Source: Clostridia bacterium (lineage in GTDB: Bacteria > Acidobacteriota > Terriglobia > Terriglobales > Acidobacteriaceae). From it: a stretch of 64,000 bases of DNA. Below the pieces are notes generated by a model. It was not told the DNA's origin, searched no databases, and saw nothing but the letters and a program-made list of their open reading frames with translations. This document shows, one piece after another, positions 6,465 through 50,335 of the stretch. Both the position numbers and the translations under genes were made by a program. Location: the NCBI GenBank assembly GCA_035561135.1, contig DATMYA010000051.1, forward strand, positions 62,001 through 126,000, read 5' to 3'. The first letter of the stretch is position 1. Every line of letters starts with the position of its first letter.

Positions 6465-6490
6465 GTTGGATTGAACAGAGCGCAATATCA

Positions 6491-17461: not shown

Positions 17462-19012
17462 CTACTTGACCAACTGCGCGACTGGCGTCGTTTGCACGAT
17501 GTTCAACGACCAGTTCACCGCCTGGATGAATAGGTTCGGGAAGATGCCGATACCGATTGTTCCAACACCGGTTATCGTCAAAGCGAGTGCCATGCCGGGG
17601 CTAACGCGTACCGGTTCAGCATCCACAGCCTCGCGCATGAACATCGCGTTGGCGATTCGCATGTAGTAGTAGAGGCTGACCACAGCGTAAAGCACCGCGA
17701 CGGCAGCCAGCGCATAATGGCCAGTCTCGACCAGGCTCAGAAAGATAAAGTACTTGCCCAAGAAGCCTGCCATGGGTGGAATTCCAGCTAGCGACAGCAG
17801 GAACACCAGCATCAGAAAAGCTTCGGTCGGAGCTTTATGGAAAAGCCCGGCGATGTCATCGATGTCGTCGCCGATGATGTTGCGGCGGCGCAGGGAAGTA
17901 ATGACGGCGAACGCGCCCAGGTTCATGAACGTGTACACCAGTAAGTACATCATGATGCCCTTGATGCCGGTCACGTTCGTGCGTCCGTCGCTTGCGACCA
18001 GGCCGAGCAGCATGTATCCAACGTGTGCGATCGAAGAATAGGCAAGCAGCCGCTTGAGGTTGTTCTGCGTGATTGCCGCCAGGTTGCCGCCCGTCAGCGT
18101 AGCGAGCGAGACGAAGACCAGCAACGGCACGTAGATGGGACGCAGCGGGTAGATGCCAAACAGGAAAATACGCAACAGTAAAGCCCATGCCGCAGACTTC
18201 ACGGCAACGGACATGAACCCGGTCACGCTGGTTGGCGCCCCTTCATACGCATCCGGCGCCCATTGATGGAATGGCACAGCAGCAATCTTGAATAGCAGGC
18301 CAGTCGCCGTCGTTATCAGGGCAAGGATGACGATAGGATCCTTCGGGTTTACGGCAAAGCGTTGTTCGAGTGCGAAGCCGATTTCGCCGAGATTCGTCGA
18401 ACCCGTCAGTCCATAGAACAATGACAGGCCGTAGGCGAAGATGCCGGACGAAAATGCTCCGAGCAGAAGATACTTCAACGATGCTTCGTTCGAGCGCTTG
18501 TCGCTGCGCAGGAACCCGACTAGAACGTAGGTAGACAGGGCCATCAGTTCCAGGCCGATGAAGAGCAGGATGAGGTCATAGCCGCAGGCCATGCACATCA
18601 TCCCGACAACTGCAAACAGCATGAGCGCGTAGAACTCGCCGTGATCTTCCCGCTCGATCTCGAGATAGCGGACGGACATCAGGATAGAAACCGCCGCGCC
18701 AAGCAGGAACAGGTAGAAGAAATAGATGGCGAAGCGATCTACCACCAGCGTCCCCATGAAGCCGCTGTAATGCGAGATTGTCAGGCCACGAAGTTCGGCC
18801 GCGCGAAACGCCGCGTGGATCTTGGCCACTCCTGCCGCCGAAAACGCGATCCCTGCCAGCGCGGTGATCGCATTGATGCGCTTCCACTCCGCTGGCAGGA
18901 TCAGATCGATCAGCAGAATCCCCAGCGCGAACAGTGCCAGCAGGATCATCGGCAGCGACAGCAGGTAGTCGGAGCTAGTGAAGAATTGTGAGATCGAGTT
19001 CGACACGATCAT
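17462..19012 (-). CDS. nuoN: NADH-quinone oxidoreductase subunit N (copy 2)
   Basis: 516 residues, starting at MIVSNSISQFF (19012). Motifs: LIGLELMALSTYVLVGF, FKIAAVPFHQWAPDAYEGAPTSV and KRLLAYSSIAHVGYMLLG. Clearly diverged from the first NuoN; it carries ELMALST where that has EISSIST. Last gene of the cluster. Confidence 0.95.
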   Translation of the reverse strand: MIVSNSISQFFTSSDYLLSLPMILLALFALGILLIDLILPAEWKRINAITALAGIAFSAAGVAKIHAAFRAAELRGLTISHYSGFMGTLVVDRFAIYFFYLFLLGAAVSILMSVRYLEIEREDHGEFYALMLFAVVGMMCMACGYDLILLFIGLELMALSTYVLVGFLRSDKRSNEASLKYLLLGAFSSGIFAYGLSLFYGLTGSTNLGEIGFALEQRFAVNPKDPIVILALITTATGLLFKIAAVPFHQWAPDAYEGAPTSVTGFMSVAVKSAAWALLLRIFLFGIYPLRPIYVPLLVFVSLATLTGGNLAAITQNNLKRLLAYSSIAHVGYMLLGLVASDGRTNVTGIKGIMMYLLVYTFMNLGAFAVITSLRRRNIIGDDIDDIAGLFHKAPTEAFLMLVFLLSLAGIPPMAGFLGKYFIFLSLVETGHYALAAVAVLYAVVSLYYYMRIANAMFMREAVDAEPVRVSPGMALALTITGVGTIGIGIFPNLFIQAVNWSLNIVQTTPVAQLVK

Positions 19013-19064
19013 TTCCCTTCGGAACGACCCGGTGCACACCCATGGCATGCACCGGAATGCTGAA

Positions 19065-20759
19065 TTACTTTGCCGCGCTGGGCGTGACCGAAACCACAGC
19101 AACGGGTACGTGGACGCCATGTGCCGGGCTCGGAGCAGCAACTTTCTGCTCGGGAGCTTGCGGTTGCTCTGCTTGTCCCTCTGTCTGCGATTGTGCTGGT
19201 TCCGCAGTCACTGCCGTCGCAGGCACAGTCGGCGCCTTCGCGTTGTACACGCCCTTCGTCTCGATCTTTTGCACGAGCTCAGTAACGGGCTGATCCAATA
19301 TCTGGAAGAACGGCTTCGGGTACAGACCGATCCAGAATGACAGGATCACGAGCGGAACGAAGGTCGCAAGCTCGCGGCCTGTAAGGTCCGTTAGTTTTTC
19401 GTTCTTCGGATTCGATACCGTCCCGAAGAAAACCCTTTGGTAAAGCCACAGCAGGTAGGCGGCGGCAAGTACGATTCCCGGGGCAGCCCAGGCAGCCCAG
19501 GCACGGTTCGCCATGAATGCGCCCTGCAGAATCGTGAATTCGCCAACGAAGCCGTTGAGCAGCGGCAAGCCCATCGACGACATGAACATGATCATCGTGA
19601 TAGTCGCGTACACCGGCATCACGCTAGAGATACCACCGTACTCTGAGATCTCGCGCGTGTGGCGGCGTTCGTACAGGATGCCGACAATCAAGAACAGCGC
19701 GCCGGTCGAGATGCCGTGGTTGATCTGCTGCAACACCGAACCGCTTATCCCGGAGTGGTTCAGCGCGAAAATGCCGAGGGTGCAGAAGCCAAGGTGACTC
19801 ACGGACGAGTACGCCACCAGCTTCTTCATATCCTTCTGCATCAGCGAAACCAGGGCACCGTAGGTGATGCCGATCAAAGAGAGGCCAATCATCCAAGCGC
19901 GAATTTTCGGATACTGCACTACCACTGGGAAGAGCGGAAGGGAGAAGCGGATCAGGCCGTATGTTCCCATCTTGAGCAGAACGCCTGCCAGGATCACTGA
20001 GCCGGCCGTCGGCGCTTCAACGTGCGCGTCTGGCAGCCAGGTGTGGAACGGGAACATCGGCACCTTGATCGCGAATCCGATAAAGAACGCCAGGAACAGG
20101 ACGATGCCCGCCGTGCCTGTAATCATCGGGGCGGTCTCGTACAGCGCCGGAACGCTGAACGTGTATACGCCCGTTACCGAGTGGTGGTGGAAGTACAGAT
20201 ATAGGATGCCGAGCAGCATCAGCACCGAACCGGCAAGGGTATACATGAAGAACTTGATCGCCGCATAGAGCTTGCGCGGACCACCCCAGATGCCGATAAG
20301 CAAGTACATTGGCACCAGCATAGCTTCCCAGAAGACGAAGAACAGAAAGAAGTCCATCGCCATGAAGACGCCGAGCATGCCCGTCTGGAGCACCAGGAAC
20401 CAGATGTAGTATTCCTTGACGCGGACCTGGATCGCTTCCCATGAGGACAGGATCGACACCGCACCGAGCATCGTCGTCAGCATAATCAGCAGGAACGAGA
20501 TGCCGTCAATTCCGATGAAGTAGCCGGCACCGATGGTTGGAATCCAATTATTCGGAGCGCCCTCCACGAACTTGAAGCCGGGCTGCGCCTTCACTGCCCA
20601 GAACCATGGGACCAATGGCAGCGACACCGCGAATCCGGCCATAGCGAAGATGTTCGCCATCCAGCGAATCGCGTTCTTGTTCTCCCTGGGTACGAACAGG
20701 AGAATGAGGGCCCCCACCAGGGGAGTGAACAGCACGATCGAGAGAATGTGGTTATACAT
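19065..20759 (-). CDS. nuoM: NADH-quinone oxidoreductase subunit M (copy 2)
   Basis: 564 residues. Motifs: LFFVFWEAMLVPMYLLIGIWGG, LPDAHVEAPTAGSVILAGVLLKMGTYG and QINHGISTGALFLIVGILYERRH. After the last helix there is a hydrophilic Ala/Pro/Gln-rich tail of about 65 residues (roughly 500-564), absent from copy 1. A similar Ala/Pro-rich extension occurs on NuoC2 of this cluster. Confidence 0.95.
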   Translation of the reverse strand: MYNHILSIVLFTPLVGALILLFVPRENKNAIRWMANIFAMAGFAVSLPLVPWFWAVKAQPGFKFVEGAPNNWIPTIGAGYFIGIDGISFLLIMLTTMLGAVSILSSWEAIQVRVKEYYIWFLVLQTGMLGVFMAMDFFLFFVFWEAMLVPMYLLIGIWGGPRKLYAAIKFFMYTLAGSVLMLLGILYLYFHHHSVTGVYTFSVPALYETAPMITGTAGIVLFLAFFIGFAIKVPMFPFHTWLPDAHVEAPTAGSVILAGVLLKMGTYGLIRFSLPLFPVVVQYPKIRAWMIGLSLIGITYGALVSLMQKDMKKLVAYSSVSHLGFCTLGIFALNHSGISGSVLQQINHGISTGALFLIVGILYERRHTREISEYGGISSVMPVYATITMIMFMSSMGLPLLNGFVGEFTILQGAFMANRAWAAWAAPGIVLAAAYLLWLYQRVFFGTVSNPKNEKLTDLTGRELATFVPLVILSFWIGLYPKPFFQILDQPVTELVQKIETKGVYNAKAPTVPATAVTAEPAQSQTEGQAEQPQAPEQKVAAPSPAHGVHVPVAVVSVTPSAAK

Positions 20760-20810
20760 TTTTAATTCCGTCCGTGAAGCGAGCCTGAATTCTCAGGGCG
20801 CTCAATCCGT

Positions 20811-23063
20811 TTACCTGATCACGTAGTACCAAATGAACCCGACCAAGCCGCAAACCATGACCAGCGCATACCACTGCACCAGTCCCCATTGCACCAGGCG
20901 CACCGGGTAGGAAAGCACACGTGCGACAACCGCGGGGCCGTTAACGAGAAGCCCGTCAATGATCCACTTATCCCACCAGTTCAGCACCCAACCGAAGAAC
21001 TTGGTCATCCAGCCCGCACCGTTCACGCCGCCATCGATGACATTGGCATCAAACTTCCATAAAGCGATTCCCAAGCCCTGCACGCCGAGACGTACCGTGC
21101 CCAGCTTGCGGCGTCCGGTGAAGAGTATGTCGTATAGCTCATCCACGTAATACTTATTAAAGAGTGTGCGATAAACCGCGGGAGCCGCTTCATTGATCGG
21201 CTCCGTATAACCTTTGTCGGCATTACGGTACGCGCGATATGCGAGGAACATCCCAAGTAACGCTGCCGCAACTGATGCAACCATCAGGATGTACTCCAGC
21301 GGCTCGAACTCATGTGCAGCATGAGCCGGCACAACGTTCGACGGAGGTTCAATTCCCTCTTTCGCCGCTTCGTTCACGTGCGTAGCTTCGGTCGCAGCCT
21401 GCTCGCCTTCCGTCTGCTTCGCGGAATTCTCGCCCGCTACCAGCGTTCCGTGTTCGCCAGCTCCCAAGGCCGAGTGTGTCGTTGTGGCGCCATGCGCCTC
21501 GCGAGCGAAGACCGGCTCAAGGAACTTTTCGAAATGGTTCGACCCGCCGAGGCTGGCAGGCACGCCAAGGTAGCCGACGAAGATCGACCCGAGTGCCAGC
21601 ACCATGAGCGGAATCGTCATCGACTTTGGAGATTCGTGGATATGGTGCTCGACCTCGTGGCTCATGCGCGGCTTGCTGAAGAACGTCAGCCAGATCAGCC
21701 TGAACATGTAGAACGCGGTCATCAGAGCGGTAATGAACGCGACCACCCAGAGAATCCTGAATTGTCCGTTATTGCTCGACCAGGTTTGCCAAAGGATCTC
21801 GTCCTTCGAGAAGAAGCCAGCCAGACCGGGGATTCCGGCGATGGCGAGCGTGCCGATCAACATTGTCCGGAAGGTTACCGGAATCTTCTTTGAGAGGCCG
21901 CCCATAAAGCGCATGTCCTGCTCGCCGCTCATGGCGTGGATCACCGATCCGGAACCGAGGAACAGCAGCGCCTTAAAGAACGCGTGCGTGAAGACGTGGA
22001 AGACGCCGGCGGCGAATGCGCCAACGCCGAGCGCCAGGAACATGTACCCAAGCTGCGATACTGTCGAATACGCCAGGACACGCTTGATGTCGTTCTGCAC
22101 CAGGCCAATCGATGCTGCGAAGATTGCCGTCAAACCGCCGACCACGGCCACTACTTCCATTGACGTAGGCGCGAGTTGGAACAAGGCATTGCTGCGCGCC
22201 ACCATGTAAACGCCCGCCGTTACCATCGTTGCCGCGTGGATCAGTGCGGAAACAGGCGTGGGACCCTCCATCGCGTCCGGAAGCCAGACATACAGAGGAA
22301 GCTGTGCGGATTTGCCGCAAGCGCCCAGGAAGAGCAACAGCGTCGCCGCCGTGAGGACCAAATCCCCTGTCTGAAAGTTGCCGCTCCGCAGCGTTTCGTT
22401 GATGGCCGTGAACTTCACCGTGCCCAGGTACCACATGATCGTCATCGACCCGAGCAGCACGCCGGCATCGCCGACACGGTTGACAATGAATGCTTTGTTC
22501 GCCGCCGTCGAGGCCGAGTGCTTATGGAAGTAGAAACCAATCAACAGGTACGAACACAGACCCACACCCTCCCACCCGACGAACATCATCATGTAATTGT
22601 TGCCGAGGATGAGTGTCAGCATGGAGAACATGAACAGGTTCAGGTACCCGAAGAATCGGTAGTACCCGCCTTCATGCGCCATATACCCGGTGGAGTAGAT
22701 GTGGATGAGCATGCCGATGCCGGTCACGAATAGTAACCAGATGCACGACAGCGGATCCAGCAGGAATCCCGCTTCGGCCTTGAACTGACCGAGTTGACCA
22801 TCCCTCATGGGGAAGGTGAACTTGCCAGTATCACTGCCAAGCCACGTGTACATCACCTTCTCGAATGGCTTGCCTTCAGGCCCCGCGTAGGTGTGCACGT
22901 ACTGGTACACGGCCATGCACGACAGCAGGAAGGCCAGGGCCACCATGCCAACGCAGATGGCGTTCACCGCCGGCTTGCTCAGACGCTTGCCGAAAAAGAA
23001 CATCGCGGCCGCGCCGAATGCCGGCAGGAGTGGAATGATCCAAATGTGTTCCAAGAAGAACAT
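20811..23063 (-). CDS. nuoL: NADH-quinone oxidoreductase subunit L (copy 2)
   Basis: 750 residues, about 50 more than copy 1. Core motifs are [39 protein letters not shown] and [19 protein letters not shown]. The extra length is a hydrophilic Ala/Glu/His-rich insertion at about residues 520-590, before the last helices and the lateral arm. A 241-nt spacer without recognisable genes separates it from nuoK2. Confidence 0.95.
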   Translation of the reverse strand: MFFLEHIWIIPLLPAFGAAAMFFFGKRLSKPAVNAICVGMVALAFLLSCMAVYQYVHTYAGPEGKPFEKVMYTWLGSDTGKFTFPMRDGQLGQFKAEAGFLLDPLSCIWLLFVTGIGMLIHIYSTGYMAHEGGYYRFFGYLNLFMFSMLTLILGNNYMMMFVGWEGVGLCSYLLIGFYFHKHSASTAANKAFIVNRVGDAGVLLGSMTIMWYLGTVKFTAINETLRSGNFQTGDLVLTAATLLLFLGACGKSAQLPLYVWLPDAMEGPTPVSALIHAATMVTAGVYMVARSNALFQLAPTSMEVVAVVGGLTAIFAASIGLVQNDIKRVLAYSTVSQLGYMFLALGVGAFAAGVFHVFTHAFFKALLFLGSGSVIHAMSGEQDMRFMGGLSKKIPVTFRTMLIGTLAIAGIPGLAGFFSKDEILWQTWSSNNGQFRILWVVAFITALMTAFYMFRLIWLTFFSKPRMSHEVEHHIHESPKSMTIPLMVLALGSIFVGYLGVPASLGGSNHFEKFLEPVFAREAHGATTTHSALGAGEHGTLVAGENSAKQTEGEQAATEATHVNEAAKEGIEPPSNVVPAHAAHEFEPLEYILMVASVAAALLGMFLAYRAYRNADKGYTEPINEAAPAVYRTLFNKYYVDELYDILFTGRRKLGTVRLGVQGLGIALWKFDANVIDGGVNGAGWMTKFFGWVLNWWDKWIIDGLLVNGPAVVARVLSYPVRLVQWGLVQWYALVMVCGLVGFIWYYVIR

Positions 23064-23304
23064 GGTTTGTTCTCAGTCCCGATGCCAATCGCTTGCACCG
23101 GTGTTGGGGCCGTCTCCGTCCCGATCTCTACTTTCAACCGCCCGGCTCAAAATCGCCGGCCAGCCAGGTACGTCCGCTTCGTCGCCTTTTGCAGCCTGGA
23201 ATTCCTGGCCTGATCTTCGTATCGCAAAAAGCGCTTCGGCCAATTCGCTCTATGTCTCAGGGCTCAACTGCTTCTCACTACTACTCTTGACTTCGGGCCG
23301 TTTC

Positions 23305-23610
23305 TTACCATTTCAGCAGGTCTACCTCATCCATGTTCACCGTTTCCTTATTGCGGAAGAAAGCGATGATGATCCCGAGGCCGATAGCAGCTTCTGCCGC
23401 TGCGTCTGCCACGATGAAGATGGAGAATATCTGCCCATGCATTCCGTGCAATCGCGAGAACGCAACCAGGTTGAGGTTGACCGCATTGAGGATCAGCTCG
23501 ATTGACATGAGAATGATGACTACGTTGCGACGCGTGAGCACGCCAATCGTGCCGATGATGAACAGCGCCGCCGCGACGACCAGGTAATGAAGTGTAGTGA
23601 TCTCAGACAT
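23305..23610 (-). CDS. nuoK: NADH-quinone oxidoreductase subunit K (copy 2)
   Basis: A 101-residue, three-helix proton-channel subunit with conserved Glu in [15 protein letters not shown] and in [13 protein letters not shown]. It starts 2 nt after the nuoJ2 stop. Confidence 0.95.
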
Positions 23611-23612
23611 CG

Positions 23613-24122
23613 TCAGACCCTCTTCTTCGCCATGACCACCGCACCGATGATCGCAACCAGCAGCAACAACGATGCGATCTCGAACGGCATCATGTAATTG
23701 CGGTAAAGCCAGATTCCGATCTGCTGCGTGTTGTTCTCTTCGGGCAGCATCTGAAAAGTGACGGGAAAGACCGAAGCTCCGCGCTTATAGATGAACAGCA
23801 GCAAGCCGCCCAGAGTGAGCGTCGCAAGCACTCCAACCAGCCAGTGCTTGTTAAATTGCTCTTCCAGTTGAGCCTTTTCCAGATTCACCAGCATGATCAC
23901 GAACAAGAACAGCACCATGATGCCGCCCGCGTACACAATGATCTGAACGCCGGCAACGAAAGGTGCATAGAGCATCAAGTACAGCCCGGCCAGCGCAAGC
24001 AGCGTGGAAATCAACGACAGCGCCGAGTGCACCGGATTCCGGCGGGTGATCGTCAGGATCGCTCCCCCGATCGCTACCGCCGAGAGGAAATAGAAGAAGA
24101 ATGTTGTAGCTACCGGCATCAT
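23613..24122 (-). CDS. nuoJ: NADH-quinone oxidoreductase subunit J (copy 2)
   Basis: 169 residues and five helices, with the motif [26 protein letters not shown]. The loop [21 protein letters not shown] differs from copy 1. It overlaps the nuoI stop by ATGA. Confidence 0.95.
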
Positions 24123-24580
24123 CGTGCGTACACCGTCGGTTCAGCGCCTTTCTCCAGCCGGGCGCGGTCCAGGACCATGCCGTCGCGGCTGTAAAGCGCA
24201 ACTTCGTAGTCTTGCGTTAGTTCCAGGCAATCACTCGGGCAGGCGTCCTCGCACAGACCGCAATACATGCAACGGCTCGTGTCATAACTGAAGGAGCCCA
24301 GCTCCTTCTTCCCTGTCGCGGGATTGCGCTCGCTCTTGACCGTGAGGAGCCGCTCAGGACACGCGAGCGCACACAGACCGCAGGCGATGCACAATGTCTC
24401 ACCCGTTTCCGGATTCACGTTCATGCGCGGCTGTCCACGGAAGCGCTCGGCAATAATCGGGCGCTCAAGCGGATACTGCTCGGTACAGAGCTCTTTTGGG
24501 GCCTGGTATCGAAATGTGACACTTAAACCCTTCAGTAGATCAACCAGGAAAACTTTACGGAGCAATGGAGCGATACTCAC
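24119..24580 (-). CDS. nuoI: NADH-quinone oxidoreductase subunit I, two [4Fe-4S] ferredoxin
   Basis: 153 residues from a GTG at 24580 that overlaps the nuoH2 stop (GTGA). An upstream ATG in frame would overlap nuoH2 by 144 nt and is unlikely. Ligands of clusters N6a/N6b are C64/67/70/74 and C104/107/110/114. It links NuoG-type electron input to NuoB. This is the only nuoI in the window, so the first cluster would need it, or another copy elsewhere, to be complete. Confidence 0.94.
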   Translation of the reverse strand: MSIAPLLRKVFLVDLLKGLSVTFRYQAPKELCTEQYPLERPIIAERFRGQPRMNVNPETGETLCIACGLCALACPERLLTVKSERNPATGKKELGSFSYDTSRCMYCGLCEDACPSDCLELTQDYEVALYSRDGMVLDRARLEKGAEPTVYAR

Positions 24581-25821
24581 TGGAACACCCCCCAGAGGGC
24601 TGTCGCCATCAATGCGCCCAGCGCAGTCGGCAACAAAACCTTCCAGCCCACTCTCATCAACTGATCGAAGCGGTAGCGCGGGAAGGTAGCGCGATACCAG
24701 ATATACAAGTACATGAACAGGCAAACCTTAAGCGAAAACCAGTAAATGTCCTGCACACGCTCACGAACACCGGGCAGCAGCATGATCGCTCCAAGGAACG
24801 CGAGCAGGGCACCGAACCCGGCAAACCCGACTGCCTGGATCTTCATCTGCGGGATTTTTGGCATCTTCGCGGCGAGGACTAGGCACCACAGCCCAAGGCC
24901 GATGAACGTCACACCGGGCGCCAGCGAAAACGCAAGTTCCCAGGTATTTCCGCTCAGGACATTCGGGAAGGGCCGCATCCATCCGCCTAGCCACAGCGTT
25001 ACGGCGACGGACGATACGGCAATCATCGCGGCATATTCAGCCAGGAAGAACAACGACCAGCGGAAGCCCGAATACTCTGTGTGAAAACCAGCGACCAGTT
25101 CCGATTCCGCTTCCGGTAAATCGAATGGTGCGCGATTAGTTTCCGCGACCATCGCGACCGCGAAGACCATAAAGGCGACAAAGCCGAGTCCCCAGCCGTT
25201 GAAGATGAACCAAGTTCGCTGATCGAACTGCGATTGCACGATGCCGATCATGCTCAGGGTTCCCGTACCGGTCTTCAGACTGGTCATCAGGATCACGCAA
25301 ACGATCGACAATCCCATCGCGATCTCGTATGACACCATCTGCGCACTGGACCGCAACGAGCCCATCAGCGGGTAGTGCGAGTTCGACGACCAGCCGGCCA
25401 TGATGATGCCCAGCACGCTCAGTGACGACACGCCAAGCATGAACAGTATGCCGATGTTCATGTCGGTAACAGCGTGGGTGCGTCCGAACGGAATCACCAG
25501 GTAGGTAGTGAACGCGACCATCATTACCGAGACTGGCGCAAACCAGAAGACAAGCTTGTCGGCCTTGTCCGGCATGATGTCTTCCTTCAGCATCAGCTTG
25601 AGTGCGTCGGCAATTGGCTGCAACAAGCCATGCGGACCAACGCGCATTGGACCCAGGCGAACCTGCATATGCGCCAGGATCTTGCGCTCCAGCCACGTCA
25701 TGAGCATTACGGCGATGGAGGCAAACAGGAAGATCAGGAGGATATAAATCGTGGCCCAGAGGTAATCTCCTGCTTCGCCGGGCGTCACGTTCGTGTGCAG
25801 GTAATTGGTCAGGAAGCCCAT
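24577..25821 (-). CDS. nuoH: NADH-quinone oxidoreductase subunit H (copy 2)
   Basis: 414 residues. Motifs: WLERKILAHMQVRLGPMRVGPHGLLQP, NRAPFDLPEAESELVAGFHTEYSGF and RATFPRYRFDQLM. About 58 residues longer than copy 1, mostly from a longer stretch in the last third and at the N-terminus. Its ATG overlaps the nuoD2 stop by one base. Confidence 0.95.
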   Translation of the reverse strand: MGFLTNYLHTNVTPGEAGDYLWATIYILLIFLFASIAVMLMTWLERKILAHMQVRLGPMRVGPHGLLQPIADALKLMLKEDIMPDKADKLVFWFAPVSVMMVAFTTYLVIPFGRTHAVTDMNIGILFMLGVSSLSVLGIIMAGWSSNSHYPLMGSLRSSAQMVSYEIAMGLSIVCVILMTSLKTGTGTLSMIGIVQSQFDQRTWFIFNGWGLGFVAFMVFAVAMVAETNRAPFDLPEAESELVAGFHTEYSGFRWSLFFLAEYAAMIAVSSVAVTLWLGGWMRPFPNVLSGNTWELAFSLAPGVTFIGLGLWCLVLAAKMPKIPQMKIQAVGFAGFGALLAFLGAIMLLPGVRERVQDIYWFSLKVCLFMYLYIWYRATFPRYRFDQLMRVGWKVLLPTALGALMATALWGVFQ

Positions 25822-26975
25822 TACCGGTCCACCTCTCCGAGGACGATGTCGAGCGTTCCGATCACTGCGACCACGTCAGCCACCAGGCGGCCGCGGACCA
25901 TCGTGTCGAGCGCTTGCAGATTGACGAACGACGGCGGACGGACGCGCACACGGTACGGCTGCGTCGAACCGTCGCTCACAATGAAGTAACCGAGTTCGCC
26001 CTTGGGGGCCTCGATGGAATGATAAATTTCACCCACCGGCGGCTTGAGCACCTTGGGAATCTTGGCCATGATCGGCCCTTGCGACAATCCGGCGACGGCC
26101 TGCCGCACGATCCGCACCGCCTGCCGCATCTCTTCGATACGCACCAGGTACCGATCGTAGGTGTCGCAATTCGTGCCGATAGGAATGTCGAACTCGAAGT
26201 CTTTGTAAGCCGCGTACGGCTTGGCTTTCCGCAGATCCCAGCGAACACCGCTGGCGCGCAACACTGGCCCGGTCACGCCGAGCGCAATGCACTCTTCCGC
26301 GGTGATAATTCCAATACCCTTCGTGCGTTCCACCCAGATCCGATTTGTGGTCAGGAGCTCTTCATACTCATCGATCTTCGGCAGTACGTGATCGCAGAAG
26401 TTCAGGCAGTCCTGCTCAAAACCTTCGTAGGTCTCGTACTGGCAGCCGCCAATGCGGAAAGCGTGCGTCGTCAATCTCGCTCCGCAGTACTTCTCGAAAA
26501 TCTTCAGAACCTCTTCGCGATCGCGGAAGGTGTAGAACAGCGGGGTCAATGCGCCTATGTCGAGCGCGTGTGTGCCGAGCCATACCTGGTGGCTGGCAAT
26601 ACGGTTCAACTCCGTCAGAATCACGCGGATGTACTGCGCCCGCGGCGGAGCTTCCACATTCATCAGCTTCTCGACAGCCTCGCAATAGCCAAGGCCATTC
26701 GATACGGCAGCAACATAGTCCATTCGATCGACGTAGGGATTGAACTGCGCATACGTGCGGTTTTCGGCAATCTTTTCAACGCCACGGTGCAGGTAACCAA
26801 TGACGCACTCGGTTCCAAGCACCTTCTCGCCATCCAGCTTCAGGATGACGCGCAACACGCCGTGCGTAGACGGGTGTTGCGGCCCCATGTTGAGGATGAG
26901 CTCGCTGGAGTCGAGAAACGTACCCTCGTTGCTCGATATCTGCTCAAGTCTTGCGTAGAGATTTTCGTCGCTCAT
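25821..26975 (-). CDS. nuoD: NADH-quinone oxidoreductase subunit D (copy 2)
   Basis: 384 residues from [10 protein letters not shown] (26975), which overlaps the nuoC2 stop (ATGA). Motifs: [45 protein letters not shown] and the C-terminal LGEVDR. Close in size to copy 1 but clearly diverged. Confidence 0.95.
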
Positions 26976-27676
26976 TGGCCGCTCTCGATGCCGATGTTGA
27001 TCTGCACCCATTCCTGATCCTGCTGAAGGATGCCGTATTCCTTGCGAAGCGGGTACCCCTTCCATCCCTCCGGCAGCAGAATACGCCGCAGGTCCGGGTG
27101 TCCGGAAAAGTTAAGTCCGAACATGTCAAACGCTTCACGTTCCAGCCAGTTTGCAGTTGGCCATAATTCGACCACGCTGGGTACGTCCTCCCCATCCTTC
27201 ACCGGCGACTTCACCCGAATGCGCTCATTGCGCGCGAAGGAATACAGAATCCAGACGACCTCGAACTGCTCCTCCCGCTTCGGATAGTGAACAGCCGTCA
27301 CATCCACGCAGTAATCAAACTGTTCAGCCTCGCGAAGCATCTTCAGGACGTCGTACACCACCGAGCGATCCACTATCAAGTAGTTCTGCCCGAGGTAGGT
27401 GGACGCTTCCCGCAGACCAGAGCCATAGCGCTGCTTCAAGTCTTTGGTGAATTCGGTCTCCCACGGCTGCGGAGTTGGCCCTGCCGGTTTTGGCGGCACA
27501 GCCGGCTTCGCAGGAGTGACGGCAGGTTTGGCTGCGGCCGGTGCAGCGGGAGCAGTAACCTTCTCTGGCGCTGCTGGCGTTGACACCGGTTGCTCCATCG
27601 CAGACTTCTCCGCTGGCGGTTGCGAAGCGCTTTCTGCGGGAGTTGGCCGGCTATTTCCTTTTGTTTCTTCGGACAT
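26972..27676 (-). CDS. nuoC: NADH-quinone oxidoreductase subunit C (copy 2), Ala/Pro-rich N-terminal extension
   Basis: 234 residues from [11 protein letters not shown] (27676). Residues 1 to about 70 are a low-complexity Ala/Pro/Lys linker; the 30-kDa domain follows, with [27 protein letters not shown] and PLRKEYG. An earlier in-frame start at 27709 is possible. First gene of the C-to-N transcript, with a candidate promoter and a Crp-type palindrome upstream. Confidence 0.93.
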
Positions 27677-27792
27677 TTTGCCTGTTCCTTCCCGGCGAGC
27701 CAAGCTCACTCGGGTCTTTTACCGGAATACCCGCAAGACGAAAATCGCGGAGACACTTACCGGCGCCACTGGCTGAGTATCTGGAACCCCTT

Positions 27793-27798
27793 TTTATA
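27793..27798 (-). promoter_or_regulatory. Candidate -10 box of the nuoC2-N2 operon
   Basis: TATAAA on the - strand, in the context GTTATAAAAAGG. No good -35 lies 16-18 nt upstream, as is usual for activator-dependent promoters. The Crp-type palindrome centred at 27849.5 would be at about -62 from the predicted start. Confidence 0.45.
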
Positions 27799-27841
27799 AC
27801 ACCGCCCAGCACGCCAACTGCTGATTCAGGTCACAGGAAGA

Positions 27842-27857
27842 AGTGATGTGGATCACA
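27842..27857 (-). promoter_or_regulatory. CRP/FNR-family binding site upstream of nuoC2
   Basis: The - strand reads TGTGA-TCCACA-TCACT, matching the CRP consensus TGTGA-N6-TCACA at 9 of 10 positions. The core GTGAT-CCAC-ATCAC is a perfect inverted repeat. Its spacing to the candidate TATAAA box fits a class I activator position. The regulator itself is not in the window. Confidence 0.6.
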
Positions 27858-27928
27858 AACTCCCATATGAGACCCGCTTATCCGCGCGAGACAAATCGTG
27901 TGTGTGCCGATGCAGTAATCCTCGCTAA

Positions 27929-27970
27929 AAAATAAAACCCCTACCCTGCTGCGTCGCAGGTTCGGGGTTC
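27929..27970 (-). terminator. Strong terminator between nuoA2 and nuoC2
   Basis: On the - strand a hairpin of about 12 pairs (AACCCC/GGGGTT outer, CTGC-type inner stem, two mismatches) runs directly into TTTTATTTTTTAG. It lies about 170 nt past the nuoA2 stop and about 250 nt before nuoC2. Hence nuoA2 is probably transcribed separately. Confidence 0.85.
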
Positions 27971-28136
27971 TTCGAAACCAGGATTGTGGCTGTACAAATC
28001 CCCAAACTCATTACTGAACAGCGACGAGCAAACGAAAGTCCGCGCAGTCGTTCCATCGTATTGTTCCGCGCCACGGTGTCATCTTTTCGGTTGGCACGGG
28101 GCGAGGAGCCCCCCACGTCTGCGGCGGGACTAAGAC
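27971..28136 (-). other. Non-coding interval at the usual nuoB position; possible structured RNA
   Basis: The 460 bp between nuoC2 and nuoA2 contain no NuoB motifs in any frame. The part before the terminator can form hairpins on the - strand: GGGG...CCCC near 28105, and GGATT-GT...AC-AATCC near 27982-28002. It may be a 3' UTR, a processed sRNA, or a stand-alone RNA. I could not match it to 6S, SRP, tmRNA or RNase P. Confidence 0.35.
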
Positions 28137-28493
28137 TTACACCCACTCCAGGGCGCCCTTCTTCCAGATCCAGATATATCCAACGATCAGGATTCCGAGG
28201 AAGATCAGCATCTCGACGAAACCGAATATGCCGAGCAGTTTGAACTGTACCGCCCAAGGGAAGAGGAAGATGGTCTCCACGTCGAATACTACAAACAGGA
28301 TCGCGACGATGTAGAAACGGATCGTGTAACGTTTTCGAGCATCATCGACCGGATCGATGCCGCACTCATACGGCATCAGTTTAATCTTGCTCGGATTGCT
28401 CGGGCGAATGATGGTGGCGACGACCAGAGTCCCCGCCGCAATTAGAAATGCGACGAGCATAAAAATGAAAATCGGTACGTAGTTCTGCGGCAT
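28137..28493 (-). CDS. nuoA: NADH-quinone oxidoreductase subunit A (copy 2)
   Basis: 118 residues from MPQNYVPIFIFM (28493). Three helices; the conserved YECGIDP and the acidic pair in FDVETIFLFPWA are present. Separated from the rest of its cluster by a terminator and not followed by nuoB. A longer start at 28532 is possible but poorly supported. Confidence 0.95.
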   Translation of the reverse strand: MPQNYVPIFIFMLVAFLIAAGTLVVATIIRPSNPSKIKLMPYECGIDPVDDARKRYTIRFYIVAILFVVFDVETIFLFPWAVQFKLLGIFGFVEMLIFLGILIVGYIWIWKKGALEWV

Positions 28494-28519
28494 ACGGCCT
28501 CGTATGGGGTTGAGCGGGG

Positions 28520-28548
28520 AGTTTACTCCCAATCAGCACCTGCTTCAA
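28520..28548 (-). promoter_or_regulatory. Sigma70-type promoter of nuoA2
   Basis: -35 TTGAAG (28543-28548), 17-nt spacer, -10 TAAACT (28520-28525) on the - strand. The expected start is about 20 nt before the nuoA2 ATG. Confidence 0.5.
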
Positions 28549-32599: not shown

Positions 32600-32675
32600 T
32601 GGTGAGCGCGCTGGGACTCGAACCCAGGACCCACGCCTTAAAAGGGCGTTGCTCTACCAACTGAGCTACGCGCCC
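32600..32675 (-). tRNA. tRNA-Lys (anticodon UUU)
   Basis: A 76-nt cloverleaf on the - strand. Acceptor stem GGGCGCG/CGCGCTC with one G-U pair; D arm GCTCAGTTGGTAGAGC; anticodon stem ACGCC/GGCGT around loop CTTTTAA, anticodon TTT; T arm GGGTTCGAGTCCC; discriminator A and an encoded CCA. It borders the prophage on its 5' side. Confidence 0.96.
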
Positions 32676-32679
32676 ACGT

Positions 32680-32940: not shown

Positions 32941-34074
32941 CTAGACCTTGGCGTCGGCATCCAACTCGTCGGCAATGTTGCGCTCGCTCGCGACCGGCTT
33001 CTTCGGGGGTAGCTGCAGCGGGGGTAGCTGCAGTTCGAGCTTAGCCGCAGCGGCTGCCTTCGGCTTCAGCCGAATATGCGAGTAGCGTTTCTTCATCCGT
33101 GAGCTGAGCGCGTGCCCTGCCATCTCCTCGACCGTCTGCTCGGATATTTCTGGATCCTCCATCAGCTTTGTGATCGCGTGATGTCGAAGATCGTACATGC
33201 GCAGAGTCGGAAGGCCGGCCTTTGCTCGCAACTGACCCCATGCTTTTTTCCAACTGCCGATCGGCCGCGAGAAATCATACGAGCTCGCACGCGCGCGTCC
33301 AGGCAAAATGTAATGTTCTCCGCAGGCCTCGACCGAGTACTTCGCGCAGAGCTTGTAGTAGCGCCTTAACATCTGCGCCGCTGCCCATCGGGATGATTCG
33401 TTAAGCGGAACGACTCGCTCACGATGGCCATTTTTGAGGCCGTCGCGAATGCGAAGCGTTCCCCAGGGAGCGCCGGGGCGCTCGCCGAGTTCGACGTCGT
33501 TTACGTGCAGATGAGATATCTCGCAGGGTGCGGCCGTCGTCGTCGCCGTAAGGATCGAGCTCCAGTACGCGATGCGCCAACGAGGATTCCCTTCCGCGAT
33601 CGCAAACAGGCGCTTCTCGTCTTCTGGCTCCATCGCTTGCCCGACATCGCATTGCGGAATGCGGAGCGGCCGATAGAACTTCGCAATTTCCAGCCACAGT
33701 CCCGCCAGCGACAGTATCTGCTTTAGCGTGTTGATCTCGTGATTGATGGACGCCGCGTTGGCCGTCGCCGATCTCTCCTGGACGTACGAGTTGACGTGTC
33801 CGATGTGGATGTAGCTCAGCGGCAACTCGCTAAAGAAACGATCAAGAGTGCGGATGTAATACAGGTAGTCAGAATGGGTCCGTTGTGAGATCGACGATTT
33901 GTGGTCGTCGAGCCAAATCGGGGCAGCATCAGAAAATCGCAGACGCCCGAAGGCTTGCGGCTCTATTATGCGAAGCCGGTAAAGGTCACATGCAGGACAG
34001 GCCAAATGCCCAGGCGTGTGAACAGGGTGAGTTTCTGGGTTCGTGTTAGCGATCAAACTTTCTGCGTTCCGCAT
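32941..34074 (-). CDS. int: Phage integrase, tyrosine recombinase
   Basis: 377 residues: an N-terminal CPAC segment (26-29), a SAM-like core-binding domain (about 48-140) and a catalytic domain (about 150-335). Seen: Lys in DGLKNGHRERVVPL, the second Arg in YDLRHH (R297), His H321 in MAGHAL and the nucleophile Y331 in KRYSHI. The usual first catalytic Arg (around residue 181, normally T-x-R-x-x-E) reads TTTAAPCEIS, with no Arg. The Lys/Pro/Leu-rich tail has two copies of LQLPP. Divergent from the small gene at 34142. Confidence 0.9.
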   Translation of the reverse strand: MRNAESLIANTNPETHPVHTPGHLACPACDLYRLRIIEPQAFGRLRFSDAAPIWLDDHKSSISQRTHSDYLYYIRTLDRFFSELPLSYIHIGHVNSYVQERSATANAASINHEINTLKQILSLAGLWLEIAKFYRPLRIPQCDVGQAMEPEDEKRLFAIAEGNPRWRIAYWSSILTATTTAAPCEISHLHVNDVELGERPGAPWGTLRIRDGLKNGHRERVVPLNESSRWAAAQMLRRYYKLCAKYSVEACGEHYILPGRARASSYDFSRPIGSWKKAWGQLRAKAGLPTLRMYDLRHHAITKLMEDPEISEQTVEEMAGHALSSRMKKRYSHIRLKPKAAAAAKLELQLPPLQLPPKKPVASERNIADELDADAKV

Positions 34075-34141: not shown

Positions 34142-34336
34142 ATGTCGGGAGGGAAATCGAGTGGACGGGCTTCGATCACGACGACGAATGCGCCGACGTG
34201 CGTGAAGCATCCTGAGACAAAGCTCGTTTGTCCCAGGTGTATTGCCGCCGAAGGTGGCAAGGCGACGGCAAAGACTCACGGCAAGAAACAACTGAGCGAG
34301 TGGGGAAAATTGGGTGGGAGACCGCGGAAGAGTTGA
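34142..34336 (+). CDS. Small zinc-binding-type protein ending in GGRPRK
   Basis: 64 residues with an excellent ribosome binding site (AAAGGAGG, about 9 nt before ATG). Contains CVKHPETKLVCPRC, a possible metal site, then AAEGGKATAKTHGKKQLSEW and the tail KLGGRPRKS. The tail resembles another small prophage protein at 61.7-61.9 kb. Divergent from int; role unknown. Confidence 0.7.
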   Translation: MSGGKSSGRASITTTNAPTCVKHPETKLVCPRCIAAEGGKATAKTHGKKQLSEWGKLGGRPRKS

Positions 34337-34415: not shown

Positions 34416-35057
34416 TTAACACGCTTTTACAGGTGAGGTCACCGTTGTCGGAGCGCACTTTGCACGCGCACGCTTCGGCCCCTTATCCCATCCCGGGTTG
34501 TTACACCTCGGACAGACCTTCGGACGCTTCAAGCTTCGCGGCAGCCAACTCTTCTCACATTTCAGACAGTGCAGCCAGCCGACATGCGGTCCGTCATCTA
34601 CCCTGGGCGGCGGTACCGGATTCGCCAGGCGGAACAGCATTAGCGAAACGCCGCGACTGATTTTCCCTCCGACTCGGGTTGCGATCGCCTTCCACTTCTC
34701 GCCGGCGTCCAGGCGCGGAGCCATGTCGGCCGCGAGCTCGGCGTCAAGGTGCCCGATCTGGATGCGCTGTGCCGGGCCGGGCTGTCCACAACGCGTCGGC
34801 GGCGCCGGGATTGTCGCGATGACTTCGATCGCGTCCGCGCTGTAAGCGTCATGGGGATCGCGGACCAGGTCCACGAAGTCGAACTGCGTCATTCGCCAGA
34901 TGGCGTCCTGGCGCGACGTGCCATCCTCATTGTTGTGTGTGACGCCGACGACCTTCGTGTGGCGTCGAAGATCGTGCGGCGGCAGCAGTTTCCCGAGTAG
35001 CGCGCGTTCTACGAGTTCCTCGTCGCGTGTGCGTTCCGCAGGAGTACGAGTCGACAT
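34416..35057 (-). CDS. HIRAN-domain protein with C-terminal zinc ribbon
   Basis: 213 residues. Residues 33-143 fit a HIRAN domain: KVVGVTHNNEDGTSRQ, a DLVRDPHDAYSADAIEV segment, then IQIGHLDAELAADMAPRLDAG and a C-terminal strand SLMLFRL. HIRAN domains bind DNA ends in HLTF/Rad5-type proteins and occur alone in phage proteins. A zinc ribbon follows (C164/C167/C182/C185), paralogous to the 62-residue protein by the tRNA. RBS AGAAGGA upstream of ATG 35057. A DNA-binding or repair-related role is inference. Confidence 0.72.
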   Translation of the reverse strand: MSTRTPAERTRDEELVERALLGKLLPPHDLRRHTKVVGVTHNNEDGTSRQDAIWRMTQFDFVDLVRDPHDAYSADAIEVIATIPAPPTRCGQPGPAQRIQIGHLDAELAADMAPRLDAGEKWKAIATRVGGKISRGVSLMLFRLANPVPPPRVDDGPHVGWLHCLKCEKSWLPRSLKRPKVCPRCNNPGWDKGPKRARAKCAPTTVTSPVKAC

Positions 35058-35083: not shown

Positions 35084-35108
35084 AAAAAGAGCGCCCCCGA
35101 AGAGACGC
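35084..35108 (-). terminator. Terminator after the M50-type protease gene
   Basis: On the - strand a 7-pair stem (with G-U pairs) capped by TTCG is followed by TCTTTTTATT, about 20 nt past the stop at 35130. Confidence 0.65.
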
Positions 35109-35129
35109 CCTCGTTTACGCCGAATACTT

Positions 35130-35552
35130 CTAAGCCGTGAATGCCTTGAACGCGCGCCAACCATCCGTGCCTGGCACAGGCAAAAGGTTCCCGACAAAGA
35201 GCAACAGATTGATGGCGGCGAACGTACCCTGCTGCGCAAATCCGAACGCGATGAACAGCACTAGGCTCACCGCCGGACCAGCGAGCGAGATCGCCGCGTT
35301 GTGCCACGGCGACACAGATCTCTCGCGACTGATGAATCCTCCCCAAGCGCAGATTCCGATCGCTTCCACGCCGACGCCGAACGCGCGCGCAGCCAACCAG
35401 TGTCCCAACTCGTGCAGCAACAGGCAGCCGACCACAGCCCACGCGTTTAGTGGGGAGAAGTTCGTCAAGGCCAGCAGAATGGGAAAAAGGATTAAGGCAC
35501 CGGGCTTCACTTCCAGCCGCAGCGCATGGGTGGTAATGTGTGTGGCAGCCAT
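35130..35552 (-). CDS. Putative M50 (site-2-protease-like) membrane metalloprotease
   Basis: 140 residues from ATG 35552, preceded by AAGGAGG. Three to four hydrophobic helices. The zinc motif HELGH (residues 47-51) is in helix 2, and NLLPVPGTDGW (121-131) supplies the third ligand Asp, as in NxxPxxxxDG of site-2 proteases. Compact, with no PDZ domain. S2P enzymes cut membrane-bound anti-sigma factors or signal-peptide remnants; a phage role is unknown. Divergent from the PAP2-like gene. Confidence 0.75.
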   Translation of the reverse strand: MAATHITTHALRLEVKPGALILFPILLALTNFSPLNAWAVVGCLLLHELGHWLAARAFGVGVEAIGICAWGGFISRERSVSPWHNAAISLAGPAVSLVLFIAFGFAQQGTFAAINLLLFVGNLLPVPGTDGWRAFKAFTA

Positions 35553-35675
35553 TGTGTCCTCCTTATCAGGACGCATCGGTCAGGGCTGAGTCAGTGTTGG
35601 TAGCACTGGCTTGGCCCGTTTGATTTGGGCCGCCACAATACGTCTCTTTCTCCCTTTATGCAAGAAGAATGTTGC

Positions 35676-35708: not shown

Positions 35709-36527
35709 ATGGCATGTGCTCCGCAACCACGCATACTGCACCTCGACGCCGCCATGCGGGGCGGTGCGTGGGGAGAAATATCGCGCTACGTTGCAACAAT
35801 CGTTAGTTCCGTATCGTTCCTTGTCGTAGTGGCTCTCTTGCTCGGATGGCAGACTGCCTACTTGGCGGCTGGAGTCTTAATTCTGTATCTCGGCAAGCAC
35901 GGAAAGCTGGGGATATGGTTGGTTGTCGCGACGCAGTTGTCATCCCGAGCGGTGAATTTCACTCCGCGCCTGCTCCCCATCACATACGACTCCGTTTTCT
36001 GGCAAATCGATCGCGCTATAGGGTTCAGTCCCACTGCGGCGATGGATCTGGTTGCATTCTCTCCGAACTTGCGCACCGTAGTTTTTTCCACTTATTTTGG
36101 ATTCCCGGTGGCCATTGCTTTAGCTAGCGTCATAAGCGCGAACGCGAATCGCTTCTGCTCCAAACTAGCAGTCGCCTCCGCTTTGGGCTATCTTCTCTAC
36201 TTCGTGTTTCCCGCCTGCGGTCCGTTCTACTTCCTCACATCGACCGTAAATGCACCGCGAAATGCCATGCCGTCGCTGCATACGACGTGGGCACTGATGA
36301 TCTGGTATGAGTTGCGCCTGCAGTCACTACCGGTTCGTTTAGGGAGCGACTTGTTTCTGCTGTTCACGGTCATTGCGACACTCGGGTTCGGCGAACACTA
36401 CTTTATTGATTTGCTGGTTGCCGTTCCCTTTGTCGCAATTATCGAATCCGTCATGAGCGATCCCCTTAGTAAGCGAAACTTACAGGAGCGCTACCGCCTG
36501 ACGGCGCGGGCGCAATCACAATACTGA
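35709..36527 (+). CDS. PAP2-like membrane phosphatase or phosphotransferase
   Basis: About 272 residues from ATG 35709 (MACAPQPR); ATG 35754 is possible, and earlier ATGs precede the likely promoter. About six transmembrane helices. Active-site-type motifs are MPSLHTTWALM and GFGEHYFIDLLVAVPF, the C2 and C3 motifs of the PAP2/inositol-phosphorylceramide-synthase-like group. Such enzymes act on lipid phosphates at the membrane. On the strand opposite the late operon, its 3' end overlaps the convergent Ig-like gene by 62 nt. Probably a lysogen-expressed accessory gene. Confidence 0.75.
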   Translation: MACAPQPRILHLDAAMRGGAWGEISRYVATIVSSVSFLVVVALLLGWQTAYLAAGVLILYLGKHGKLGIWLVVATQLSSRAVNFTPRLLPITYDSVFWQIDRAIGFSPTAAMDLVAFSPNLRTVVFSTYFGFPVAIALASVISANANRFCSKLAVASALGYLLYFVFPACGPFYFLTSTVNAPRNAMPSLHTTWALMIWYELRLQSLPVRLGSDLFLLFTVIATLGFGEHYFIDLLVAVPFVAIIESVMSDPLSKRNLQERYRLTARAQSQY

Positions 36528-46388: not shown

Positions 46389-46958
46389 ATGAAGACGTTA
46401 CTGGTTGCTGTTCTGTTTGCGGCCCTTTCAACGCCGGTATCCGCCGGAGACGGGCAAGCGCAACATCCTCAAAAACCCGCGAGCCCATCCAACAGCTTCA
46501 TGCGTAATCAGCTTGGCCAGTCCATAAAAGACAGTAAGCGCGTCCTCAAGGGCGGAAATTTTTTCGCCATCGTCATGTGCGATGGAAGGGGAAACGGCCC
46601 CGGAGTTGTTGTGTGCATCAATTCGTCTTCGGGCGGTGAACTGCCTAAAACCATGCTCTGGCATGTAGACAACAAGCTCGCGAAGATCACTTACATTTTT
46701 TTTGAGGACGACTACGCCGGAATGGTACGCGCTCTCACTGCAAAATATGGAGCATCTTCGGACGCCACTACTCAAGAAGTTCAGAACAGAATGGGAGCAA
46801 AATTCGTTGGAACGAACCACACCTGGAAAAGTGGCGACACGGAGATATTGAGCTTCCAATACTTCGGCACAGTGGACCAGTCGGTTGTCATACTGAAAGA
46901 CCATGCTCTGAACGAGGAGTTGGACAAACGTATGCCAAGTTCAGACCCTAAGATTTAG
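46389..46958 (+). CDS. Secreted accessory protein inserted antisense in the tail module (moron)
   Basis: 189 residues from ATG 46389, with GGGAG about 9 nt upstream. Residues 1-20 form a Sec-type signal peptide (MKTLLVAVLFAALSTPVSAG). The mature part is a small mixed alpha/beta domain (VRALTAKYGASSDATTQEVQN, GTNHTWKSGDTEILSFQYFG) of unknown function. It lies between the tail chaperone and tape measure genes on the opposite strand, and its stop overlaps the chaperone stop tail-to-tail. Typical of a lysogenic conversion gene; possibly superinfection exclusion, which is inference. Confidence 0.7.
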   Translation: MKTLLVAVLFAALSTPVSAGDGQAQHPQKPASPSNSFMRNQLGQSIKDSKRVLKGGNFFAIVMCDGRGNGPGVVVCINSSSGGELPKTMLWHVDNKLAKITYIFFEDDYAGMVRALTAKYGASSDATTQEVQNRMGAKFVGTNHTWKSGDTEILSFQYFGTVDQSVVILKDHALNEELDKRMPSSDPKI

Positions 46959-49347: not shown

Positions 49348-49679
49348 CCGACAATCTCCATCGTTAGCAGTTGCAGCTCACGGTTGCGTCCATCCGGATT
49401 GGTTACGGAACGCACGTCGAAGATGCGCTCGCCGGAGACGACGCGCATGTCGGGCTTGATTTGCGATCGCCAACCTTCGAAGCCGCGCAAGAAGATGGCA
49501 CCGGTCACTTCGGCATGAATCTCCTGGGCAGATACGAGTTCTCGGCCGGCCAGGTCGCGGACCTCCGCGGGAAGGTCGATAAACACGTCTTCCCAGGGAC
49601 CGGTGCGCTGCCCGGCGGAATCCTTCGTCAGCGGACGCCGCTGGATGGTGATCCGGTGTCTCAGCTTGCCTGCTTGCAT
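49344..49679 (-). CDS. Putative head closure/head-tail adaptor protein
   Basis: 111 residues. MQAGKLRHRITIQRR is a hallmark of the SPP1 gp16-like head-tail adaptor family; the C-terminus (VRSVTNPDGRNRELQLLTMEIVG) agrees. Its start lies 19 nt inside the glycosyltransferase gene. Confidence 0.82.
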   Translation of the reverse strand: MQAGKLRHRITIQRRPLTKDSAGQRTGPWEDVFIDLPAEVRDLAGRELVSAQEIHAEVTGAIFLRGFEGWRSQIKPDMRVVSGERIFDVRSVTNPDGRNRELQLLTMEIVG

Positions 49680-50335
49680 GCAACTCCCTCAAAGTAGCCA
49701 TTAGGAATGCGCGCCTTCGGGACCGAGGGCCACTGGTACGGAGATCTCGCCGAAGTGTTCCCATGGTGGATGGTCGCGATGACCACGGGGCGAACCTCGC
49801 TGTCCTCACGTACATCCAGTTTTCCAAGGCGCGCGGCGCGGCCTACAAAGTTCGAATCCTCTCCACACTCAACGCCGAGAAATCGGTTTTGTTCCCAAAA
49901 GTCTTTGCGGTACATCAGCGTCGATCCGCAGGCGTAATCCTTGCCTCCGGCATAGATTGAGGCGTCGTTCGTCCGGACGTCCCAGAACAGCAGGGAGCCG
50001 TCTCCGGACAGCGGCTTCTTCGTCCCCAACAGCCGATCGGCCTGGACAACCAGGCGGTCCGGAGTGCTCCAGTCGTCATCGTCCCAGTGCGCGATGACGT
50101 CGCCGGCCGAGTGCTCGCACGCGATATTGCGTTTCCGCCCGACGTTCATGCGCGGCGGGTACCGCAGATAGACGATGCCGGGGACGTGCTGGACTAGATC
50201 CCACATAGGCGCGGCGCCGTCGTCTACGACGACCAGTTCCTTTTCCTGCCAGGTCTGGGCCAGATAGCACGCAACGGCGCGAGGAATGAACTGCCTCCGT
50301 CTGTCGGTGGTCGGCATGATGCAGGAGATGAACAT
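49661..50335 (-). CDS. GT-A fold glycosyltransferase (family 2-like)
   Basis: 224 residues. FISCIMPTTDRRRQFIPRAV and ELVVVDDG are the nucleotide-sugar binding start; GDVIAHWDDDDWSTPDRL carries the metal-binding DxD-type cluster. A later YRKDFWEQN and CGEDSNFVGRAARLG follow the same family. Embedded in the head-tail connector region, so it may glycosylate a virion protein or host surface sugar. Coupled at its start by TGATG to a 42-residue gene. Confidence 0.8.
   Translation of the reverse strand: MFISCIMPTTDRRRQFIPRAVACYLAQTWQEKELVVVDDGAAPMWDLVQHVPGIVYLRYPPRMNVGRKRNIACEHSAGDVIAHWDDDDWSTPDRLVVQADRLLGTKKPLSGDGSLLFWDVRTNDASIYAGGKDYACGSTLMYRKDFWEQNRFLGVECGEDSNFVGRAARLGKLDVREDSEVRPVVIATIHHGNTSARSPYQWPSVPKARIPNGYFEGVACKQAS

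Follow-up and report, generated by a model that had tools for sequence, protein, structure and literature searches.

The 140-aa membrane protein P0001, which is encoded in a prophage of a member of the Acidobacteriaceae, is best explained as a minimal zinc intramembrane protease that is catalytically competent, belongs to a compact, host-type M50 branch, and was taken up as cargo by a temperate phage, and we consider this reading, taken as a whole, somewhat probable. The gene for this compact M50/site-2 protease (S2P)-like protein is located on the minus strand at positions 35130–35552 of the window, by which we mean the whole stretch of 64,000 nucleotides that was analyzed. A preliminary description of this DNA had already placed a gene for a 140-residue membrane protein here, with exact coordinates and length and without naming a strand. 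The reading frame is intact (ATG at 35552, stop at 35130), and an AAGGAGG ribosome-binding site lies 5 nt upstream of the ATG (35558–35564, minus strand). An alternative in-frame ATG at 35576, which would give a protein of 148 aa, has no ribosome-binding motif before it. P0001 matches Pfam Peptidase_M50 with E = 1.4e-12 and 47.9 bits (cut-off 27.2 bits), and phmmer aligns its residues 23–137 to mjS2P with E = 1.9e-4, so that a random membrane ORF is ruled out by these two matches. The Pfam scan gave M50, M50B, and DUF3267 only and thus no family of ImmA-like soluble proteases. Over the 140 aa it detected no PDZ domain, the feature of S2P group I (RseP type), and no CBS domain, the feature of group III (SpoIVFB/mjS2P type) that is also named in the accessible part of a review (PMC10202637). 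P0001 has no PHROG match up to E 10, and without a PADLOC match it does not qualify as a known defence gene either. A close orthologue of P0001 was not found.

Predicted zinc site and fold of P0001

As far as the accessible part of the same review goes, S2Ps are defined by a three-segment core with the motifs HExxH and LDG, and the Glu residue is suggested to activate a zinc-bound water (PMC10202637). In P0001, HELGH at residues 47–51 (35400–35414, minus strand) lies on a predicted helix (34–57) and is expected to provide two zinc-binding His residues as well as the catalytic Glu. NLLPVPGTDG at residues 122–131 (35160–35189, minus strand) contains D130, which by comparison with LDG-type motifs is expected to be the third zinc ligand. 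The D130 region aligns to the MDG of mjS2P in phmmer, and P0001 has TDG, the Leu being replaced by Thr. Residues 62–76 (35325–35369, minus strand) are predicted to form a β-hairpin in place of the membrane-reentrant β-loop, which in RseP binds the substrate, is proposed to present it in an extended form, and has a conserved PxGG motif, according to the part of PMC4597795 that could be consulted. Where PxGG is expected, the hairpin of P0001 reads AWGG and the Pro is absent. The protein ends 9 residues past the DG motif. A pseudoprotease is disfavoured, as the zinc-ligand residues are retained in the sequence. Eleven residues are invariant in an alignment of 24 compact proteins that includes P0001, namely H47, E48, H51, G66, G71, R76, G92, N122, P125, D130, and G131. 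HExxH together with N[LI]xP..DG is kept in 33/33 compact rows read, P0001 and the two identical rows L100 and L156 included, which is partly built in because the rows were found by profile.

The structure model of P0001, calculated from a 60-row alignment (A4, with 59 of the 81 loci L043–L123), has a pLDDT of 88.5 and a pTM of 0.79. It contains helices at residues 19–29, 34–57, 82–105, 109–123, and 130–139 and strands at 12–15, 62–68, and 71–76, the last two of which make up the hairpin. The predicted three-transmembrane-segment core would consist of the helices 34–57, 82–105, and 109–123, to which the N-terminal helix 19–29 is added. In a Foldseek search against the PDB the model matched mjS2P (3b4r; E = 6.4e-8, TM 0.77 and 0.82 for two chains) and SpoIVFB (TM 0.67 and 0.70), and nothing else was found below E 1. 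VIA yielded a Z of 13.8 over 139 residues for mjS2P, 12.4 for SpoIVFB, and 11.9 over 111 residues at 2.1 Å for RseP, with FtsH as the next family at 6.8. Since the predictor was given an alignment of M50 proteins, the resemblance of the model to S2Ps cannot count as evidence separate from homology. The preliminary description had read P0001 as an S2P core without accessory domains and had proposed to check it by structure prediction. The Peptidase_M50 match, the kept zinc-ligand residues, and a confident model that resembles solved S2Ps, with HELGH predicted on a core helix and D130 retained, agree with that reading.

The prophage and its probable cargo genes

The location of the gene in a prophage, claimed earlier from the sequence, is confirmed by PHROG matches and by an attachment repeat. 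The window encodes an integrase (32941–34074, minus strand; phrog_1, E = 9.3e-28), TerL (phrog_9, 1.4e-135), the major head (capsid) protein (phrog_10, 1.5e-68), a head protease (phrog_80, 1.7e-50), and a tape measure protein (phrog_991, 4.7e-35). A perfect 78-bp repeat with tRNA-Lys(ttt) bounds the element, the left copy at 32600–32677 (minus strand) and the identical second copy outside the window at C51:134888–134965. Therefore, the prophage comprises ~40.3 kb and extends beyond the right end of the window. Since the repeat covers the whole tRNA-Lys gene, the lysogen has two complete copies of it. Seen from the attachment site, the integrase is followed by a small ORF of 64 aa with CxxH and CxxC but no Pfam match (34142–34336, plus strand), a HIRAN-domain protein (34416–35057, minus strand), the M50 gene, a divergent gene for a PAP2_3-superfamily membrane phosphatase-like protein (35754–36527, plus strand; PF14378, E = 1.9e-14), and then by genes toward the tail module. 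The PAP2 gene is likely a second cargo gene of the prophage. It has no second match in its own genome, and PAP2 matches at E ≤ 0.001 were obtained in 3 of the 61 genomes searched, the own one included. As a neighbour of P0001, it suggests a role in the envelope.

Downstream of P0001, starting 18 nt past the stop, a terminator-like hairpin of 11 pairs (6 GC) with a T run is present (35087–35112, minus strand); it is weak by count, because the 3-kb region contains 3 hairpins of this kind against an expectation of 2.6, and suggestive by its position alone. Sigma-70-like promoters were found 0 times in this 3-kb region, with 1.2 expected. The GC content is 60.5% for the P0001 gene, 59.7 and 59.3% for two chromosomal paralogues, 57.4% for the prophage part, and 57.6% for the host part of the window, and base composition thus gives no firm lead. 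A prophage-encoded membrane anti-sigma factor had been proposed to be sought beyond the window. Among the 44 prophage genes, called with a simple gene caller and inspected by hydropathy scan and by eye, neither an anti-sigma factor nor a membrane-bound repressor was recognised.

Several other genes were observed. The prophage encodes a secreted-looking protein of 189 aa (46389–46958, plus strand) that lies opposite to the tail genes and is possible cargo, with no Pfam or PADLOC match, and, amid the head-tail genes, an ORF that is glycosyltransferase-like by eye (49661–50335, minus strand) and has a 41% identical relative in the phage contig L187. Furthermore, it carries a stand-alone LuxR-type HTH of 70 aa (58474–58686, minus strand; GerE, E = 1.8e-10) and, in its right part (L038 1524–4411, minus strand), a HerA/DUF87-like ATPase, ~49% identical to one in L187, that adjoins a DUF5131 protein. 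The host part of the window contains two nuo-type respiratory complex I gene sets in opposite orientation (618–13585, plus strand; 17462–28532, minus strand); judged by eye, ORFs resembling nuoD, H, L, M, and N are duplicated across them.

A related element is present in G443, a genome of another genus of the same family. Its tail genes are related to those of the P0001 prophage (best segments 35–43% identical), its integrase is 64% identical over residues 18–364 and 67% in another compared part, and a HIRAN protein (55%) stands near the integrase here, too. With the A3 profile no compact M50 was found on the contig of this element (C268), and elsewhere in G443 the profile matched only long frames, of 388 and 460 aa, which lie on two different contigs. 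Two related phage contigs, L187 (TerL, 58%) and L219 (integrase, 66%), gave no M50 match with PF02163 and the A3 profile, respectively, both being virus contigs that are possibly incomplete. Since a compact M50 is absent from 3/3 related elements examined (G443:C268, L187, and L219), the M50 gene behaves as an accessory gene, and its absence from related phages, as expected of a moron (cargo) gene, was found on these three elements. This count covers the three relatives only, out of 18 related loci from the terminase search and related integrases in 65/300 genomes.

Compact M50 proteins of bacteria and phages

Compact M50 proteins are not a phage invention, as the branch is present among host-type genes of the bacterial family. 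The preliminary description has to be corrected to the effect that the compact form is no peculiarity of the phage and that the branch occurs twice more in the own genome (C30:85220 and C52:226180). These two paralogues show 44% and 40% identity to P0001 over local matches, and their surroundings look chromosomal by eye, with pilus-secretion-type genes near one and Mfd-, hemL-, panB-, and panC-like genes near the other. A search with P0001 alone in 41 genomes (the own one and 40 relatives) gave, among the matches listed outside the own genome, frames of 226–504 aa. A profile that included compact members, applied to 398 genomes of the family, gave at least 42 matches at E ≤ 2.7e-21 in at least 33 genomes, own included, a lower bound because at most nine candidates per genome were scored. 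The open frames were ≤240 aa in 41/42 of these matches. These matches point to a compact S2P branch that extends across the Acidobacteriaceae, a single genome holding as many as three copies. Genome G530 holds three compact matches (C13, C15, and C16), and many compact matches belong to genus g9. In a profile scan of genome contigs, L100 (177 aa), the protein of which is identical to that of G655, was the sole compact one among the matches listed (80 loci). The compact rows have a length of 112–187 aa in 31/33 cases read, P0001 included, the start codons not being proven. P0001 is 26–39% identical to the aligned compact proteins.

At 28 of the 30 compact loci that were fetched, no phage structural gene was seen by eye among the neighbours (~1.5 kb on each side). 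No partner gene common to these 28 loci was recognised in the same ranges, and some neighbours recur inside sub-branches. At locus L158 the compact M50 gene adjoins a transposase-like gene, by eye. Among 72,556 plasmid records 108 matched, all with <60% identity and none spanning 80% of the query. Both paralogues in the own genome weakly match NF041824, an M50 family of RiPP maturation (daptide type), with E = 1.3e-3 and 7.5e-5 and scores of 17.9 and 22.0 bits, which are below the NCBIfam equivalog cut-off of 300 bits; P0001 has no match to NF041824 up to E 1. To our knowledge, no function has been described for the compact S2P branch.

The relationship of P0001 to these proteins was analyzed in trees built from sequences trimmed around the motifs. 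In a tree of 50 rows, which omits L100 (= L156), 32 compact proteins, including the three own copies, are split with 100/100 support from 18 chosen long S2Ps, of which 14 are motif-bearing proteins of the 81 loci L043–L123 and four come from searched genomes. P0001 is found on the compact side with the longest end branch (1.83), the three own copies do not form one clade, and the phage-borne L043 is outside the compact branch. When four phage M50s (L039, L040, L041, and L042) were added, the bootstrap of the resulting 54-row tree had not settled; the compact branch was recovered with 100/99 and all four were outside, the end branch of P0001 was 1.53, and its pairing with L162 was weak (91/64). 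Because the root of the tree is not fixed, a "compact clade" is a reading and not a result. Moreover, the highest identity of P0001 in both tree alignments is to a long M50, L045 (38% and 40%), and this nearest row counts against too firm a placement. Judged by sequence, P0001 probably is a captured host-type gene of the compact branch: it resembles compact proteases of related bacteria, and therefore the phage probably picked the gene up.

Intramembrane proteases of phages had been called rarely described in the preliminary description. M50 proteins of phages were uncommon in our searches, but precedents exist. A tblastn search of 50,697 phage records yielded 4 weak matches (E up to 1) with P0001 as query and no match with the compact homologue L173. 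The Pfam M50 cut-off was passed by the huge-phage records LR745206 and LR756511, by L043 from IMG/VR, and by L042, a record marked UNVERIFIED. The IMG/VR scans gave the doubtful L005 (143 aa, under the Pfam cut-off) besides the longer M50 L043, and in BFVD two M50 proteins from Caudovirales, A0A6J5RHB6 and A0A6J5SMS1, with 268 and 184 aa, matched at E ≤ 0.001. L041, a 4.3-kb UNVERIFIED faecal record of a "Bacteriophage sp.," encodes a 161-aa M50-like protein (777–1262, plus strand) with HECGH and NLLPIHGLDG that is under the Pfam cut-off. It was rejected as a second compact phage case, as it lies outside the compact branch with other phage and long rows (100/99), a place that is unsure because of its end branch of 5.54 and a bootstrap that was not yet stable. 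In LR756511 (L040 4893–7086) a ClpX-like ORF comes after the M50 gene, and in LR745206 (L039 2412–5558) the M50 gene has LemA- and TPM-domain-like ORFs upstream, all by eye. A river virome study counts "peptidase M50" among viral auxiliary genes, as stated in the accessible part of PMC12993620. A literature search by title, with most subscription papers beyond its scope, yielded no report of a prophage-borne S2P. Phages are unmentioned in the accessible part of the S2P review (PMC10202637), as are protease, peptidase, and M50 in that of a paper on Acidobacteriota viruses (PMC11924767). A phage-borne M50 as such is thus not new; however, P0001 is the only compact-branch member that was found in a phage in the searches named, and as prophage cargo such a protein was found nowhere else in them.

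Possible functions of P0001 and comparison with known S2Ps

P0001 would be made in the lysogen, where H47, H51, and D130 would hold the zinc and E48 would activate the water. A transmembrane segment of a host membrane protein with a single pass would unwind, be joined by a strand from the hairpin, and then be cut, and access of the substrate would be set by core and hairpin alone. Lacking a PDZ or CBS gate and terminating shortly beyond the DG motif, P0001 likely trims short or already shortened membrane segments. This may lead to a lysogenic conversion that affects the host envelope or its signalling, possibly jointly with the PAP2 phosphatase. That the ungated S2P core and the divergent PAP2 protein constitute an envelope-remodelling module, with which a prophage would have hijacked regulated intramembrane proteolysis to redirect the membrane signalling of its host or to keep competing phages out, is a speculative extension to which we give a small chance.

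It is also conceivable, though unlikely, that P0001 serves the phage in lysogeny control or superinfection exclusion, for example by cleavage of a membrane protein, of phage or host, on which DNA entry depends, or by an ImmA-like destruction of a repressor. A small membrane protein, encoded proximal to the integrase and close to the attachment site in what seems to be a unit of its own, would suit such a task. However, the compact homologues read by eye adjoin non-phage-like genes, and therefore the function of the family is probably not phage-specific. The lack of a PADLOC match and of a recognisable membrane-bound repressor or anti-sigma factor among the 44 prophage genes likewise speaks against it, as does the restriction of the Pfam matches to M50, M50B, and DUF3267, since ImmA-type proteases are soluble and belong to a different family. 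With the long branch of P0001, the absence of the gene from the related prophage and the two related phage contigs, and the single phage-borne copy of the compact branch in mind, one might regard P0001 as a passenger, i.e., a host gene that was captured by chance and is drifting neutrally. We hold this to be quite improbable, because the frame is intact, the ribosome-binding site is strong, and 11/11 invariant residues are kept at 26–39% identity, P0001 itself being one of the 24 rows; this conservation suggests constraint through most of its divergence. Finally, very little probability remains for a peptidase that matures a small secreted or ribosomal peptide or clears signal-peptide remnants, as some S2Ps, e.g., Eep, do process signal peptides (PMC10202637, accessible part) and the two paralogues weakly match NF041824, but their scores are far from 300 bits, P0001 does not match at all, and inspection by eye around the copies read, by which short precursors are easily missed, revealed neither a precursor gene nor one for a radical enzyme.

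If it is active, P0001 would represent a functional S2P that is exceptionally small, with which it can be tested what the core recognises without PDZ or CBS gating, and at the same time a case of a prophage that carries machinery of regulated intramembrane proteolysis. Among the S2Ps of known structure, mjS2P (MJ0392, 3b4r) and Bacillus SpoIVFB (8vjl/8vjm) of group III are the best fold matches and share the three-helix core, HELGH, the DG motif, and the reentrant hairpin with P0001. Both are longer and have further helices, whereas P0001 stops shortly after DG and has AWGG instead of PxGG. The core of RseP (7w6x, 9j82) of group I superposes on the P0001 model at 1.8–2.1 Å over 110–111 residues; however, the RseP chains comprise 429–447 residues with PDZ domains, in contrast to 140 residues without PDZ in P0001. 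S2P groups II and IV have no extra domains and are little studied, according to the accessible part of PMC10202637, and P0001 is similar to them in domain content, on which alone they were compared. The M50 proteins of other phages (LR745206, LR756511, L043, A0A6J5RHB6, A0A6J5SMS1, and L041) are M50 or M50-like as is P0001, but they have 161–270 aa, are 31–35% identical to P0001 where compared (tblastn), and, unlike P0001, were not observed as cargo of a prophage. The compact M50s of the bacterial family (C30:85220, C52:226180, G253, G343, G530, G655, and others) are in the same size class as P0001 and have, like it, HExxH, a hairpin with G..G....R, NLxPxx.DG, and no apparent accessory domain. 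They differ from it in sitting among non-phage-like genes, whereas P0001 is the divergent copy in a prophage.
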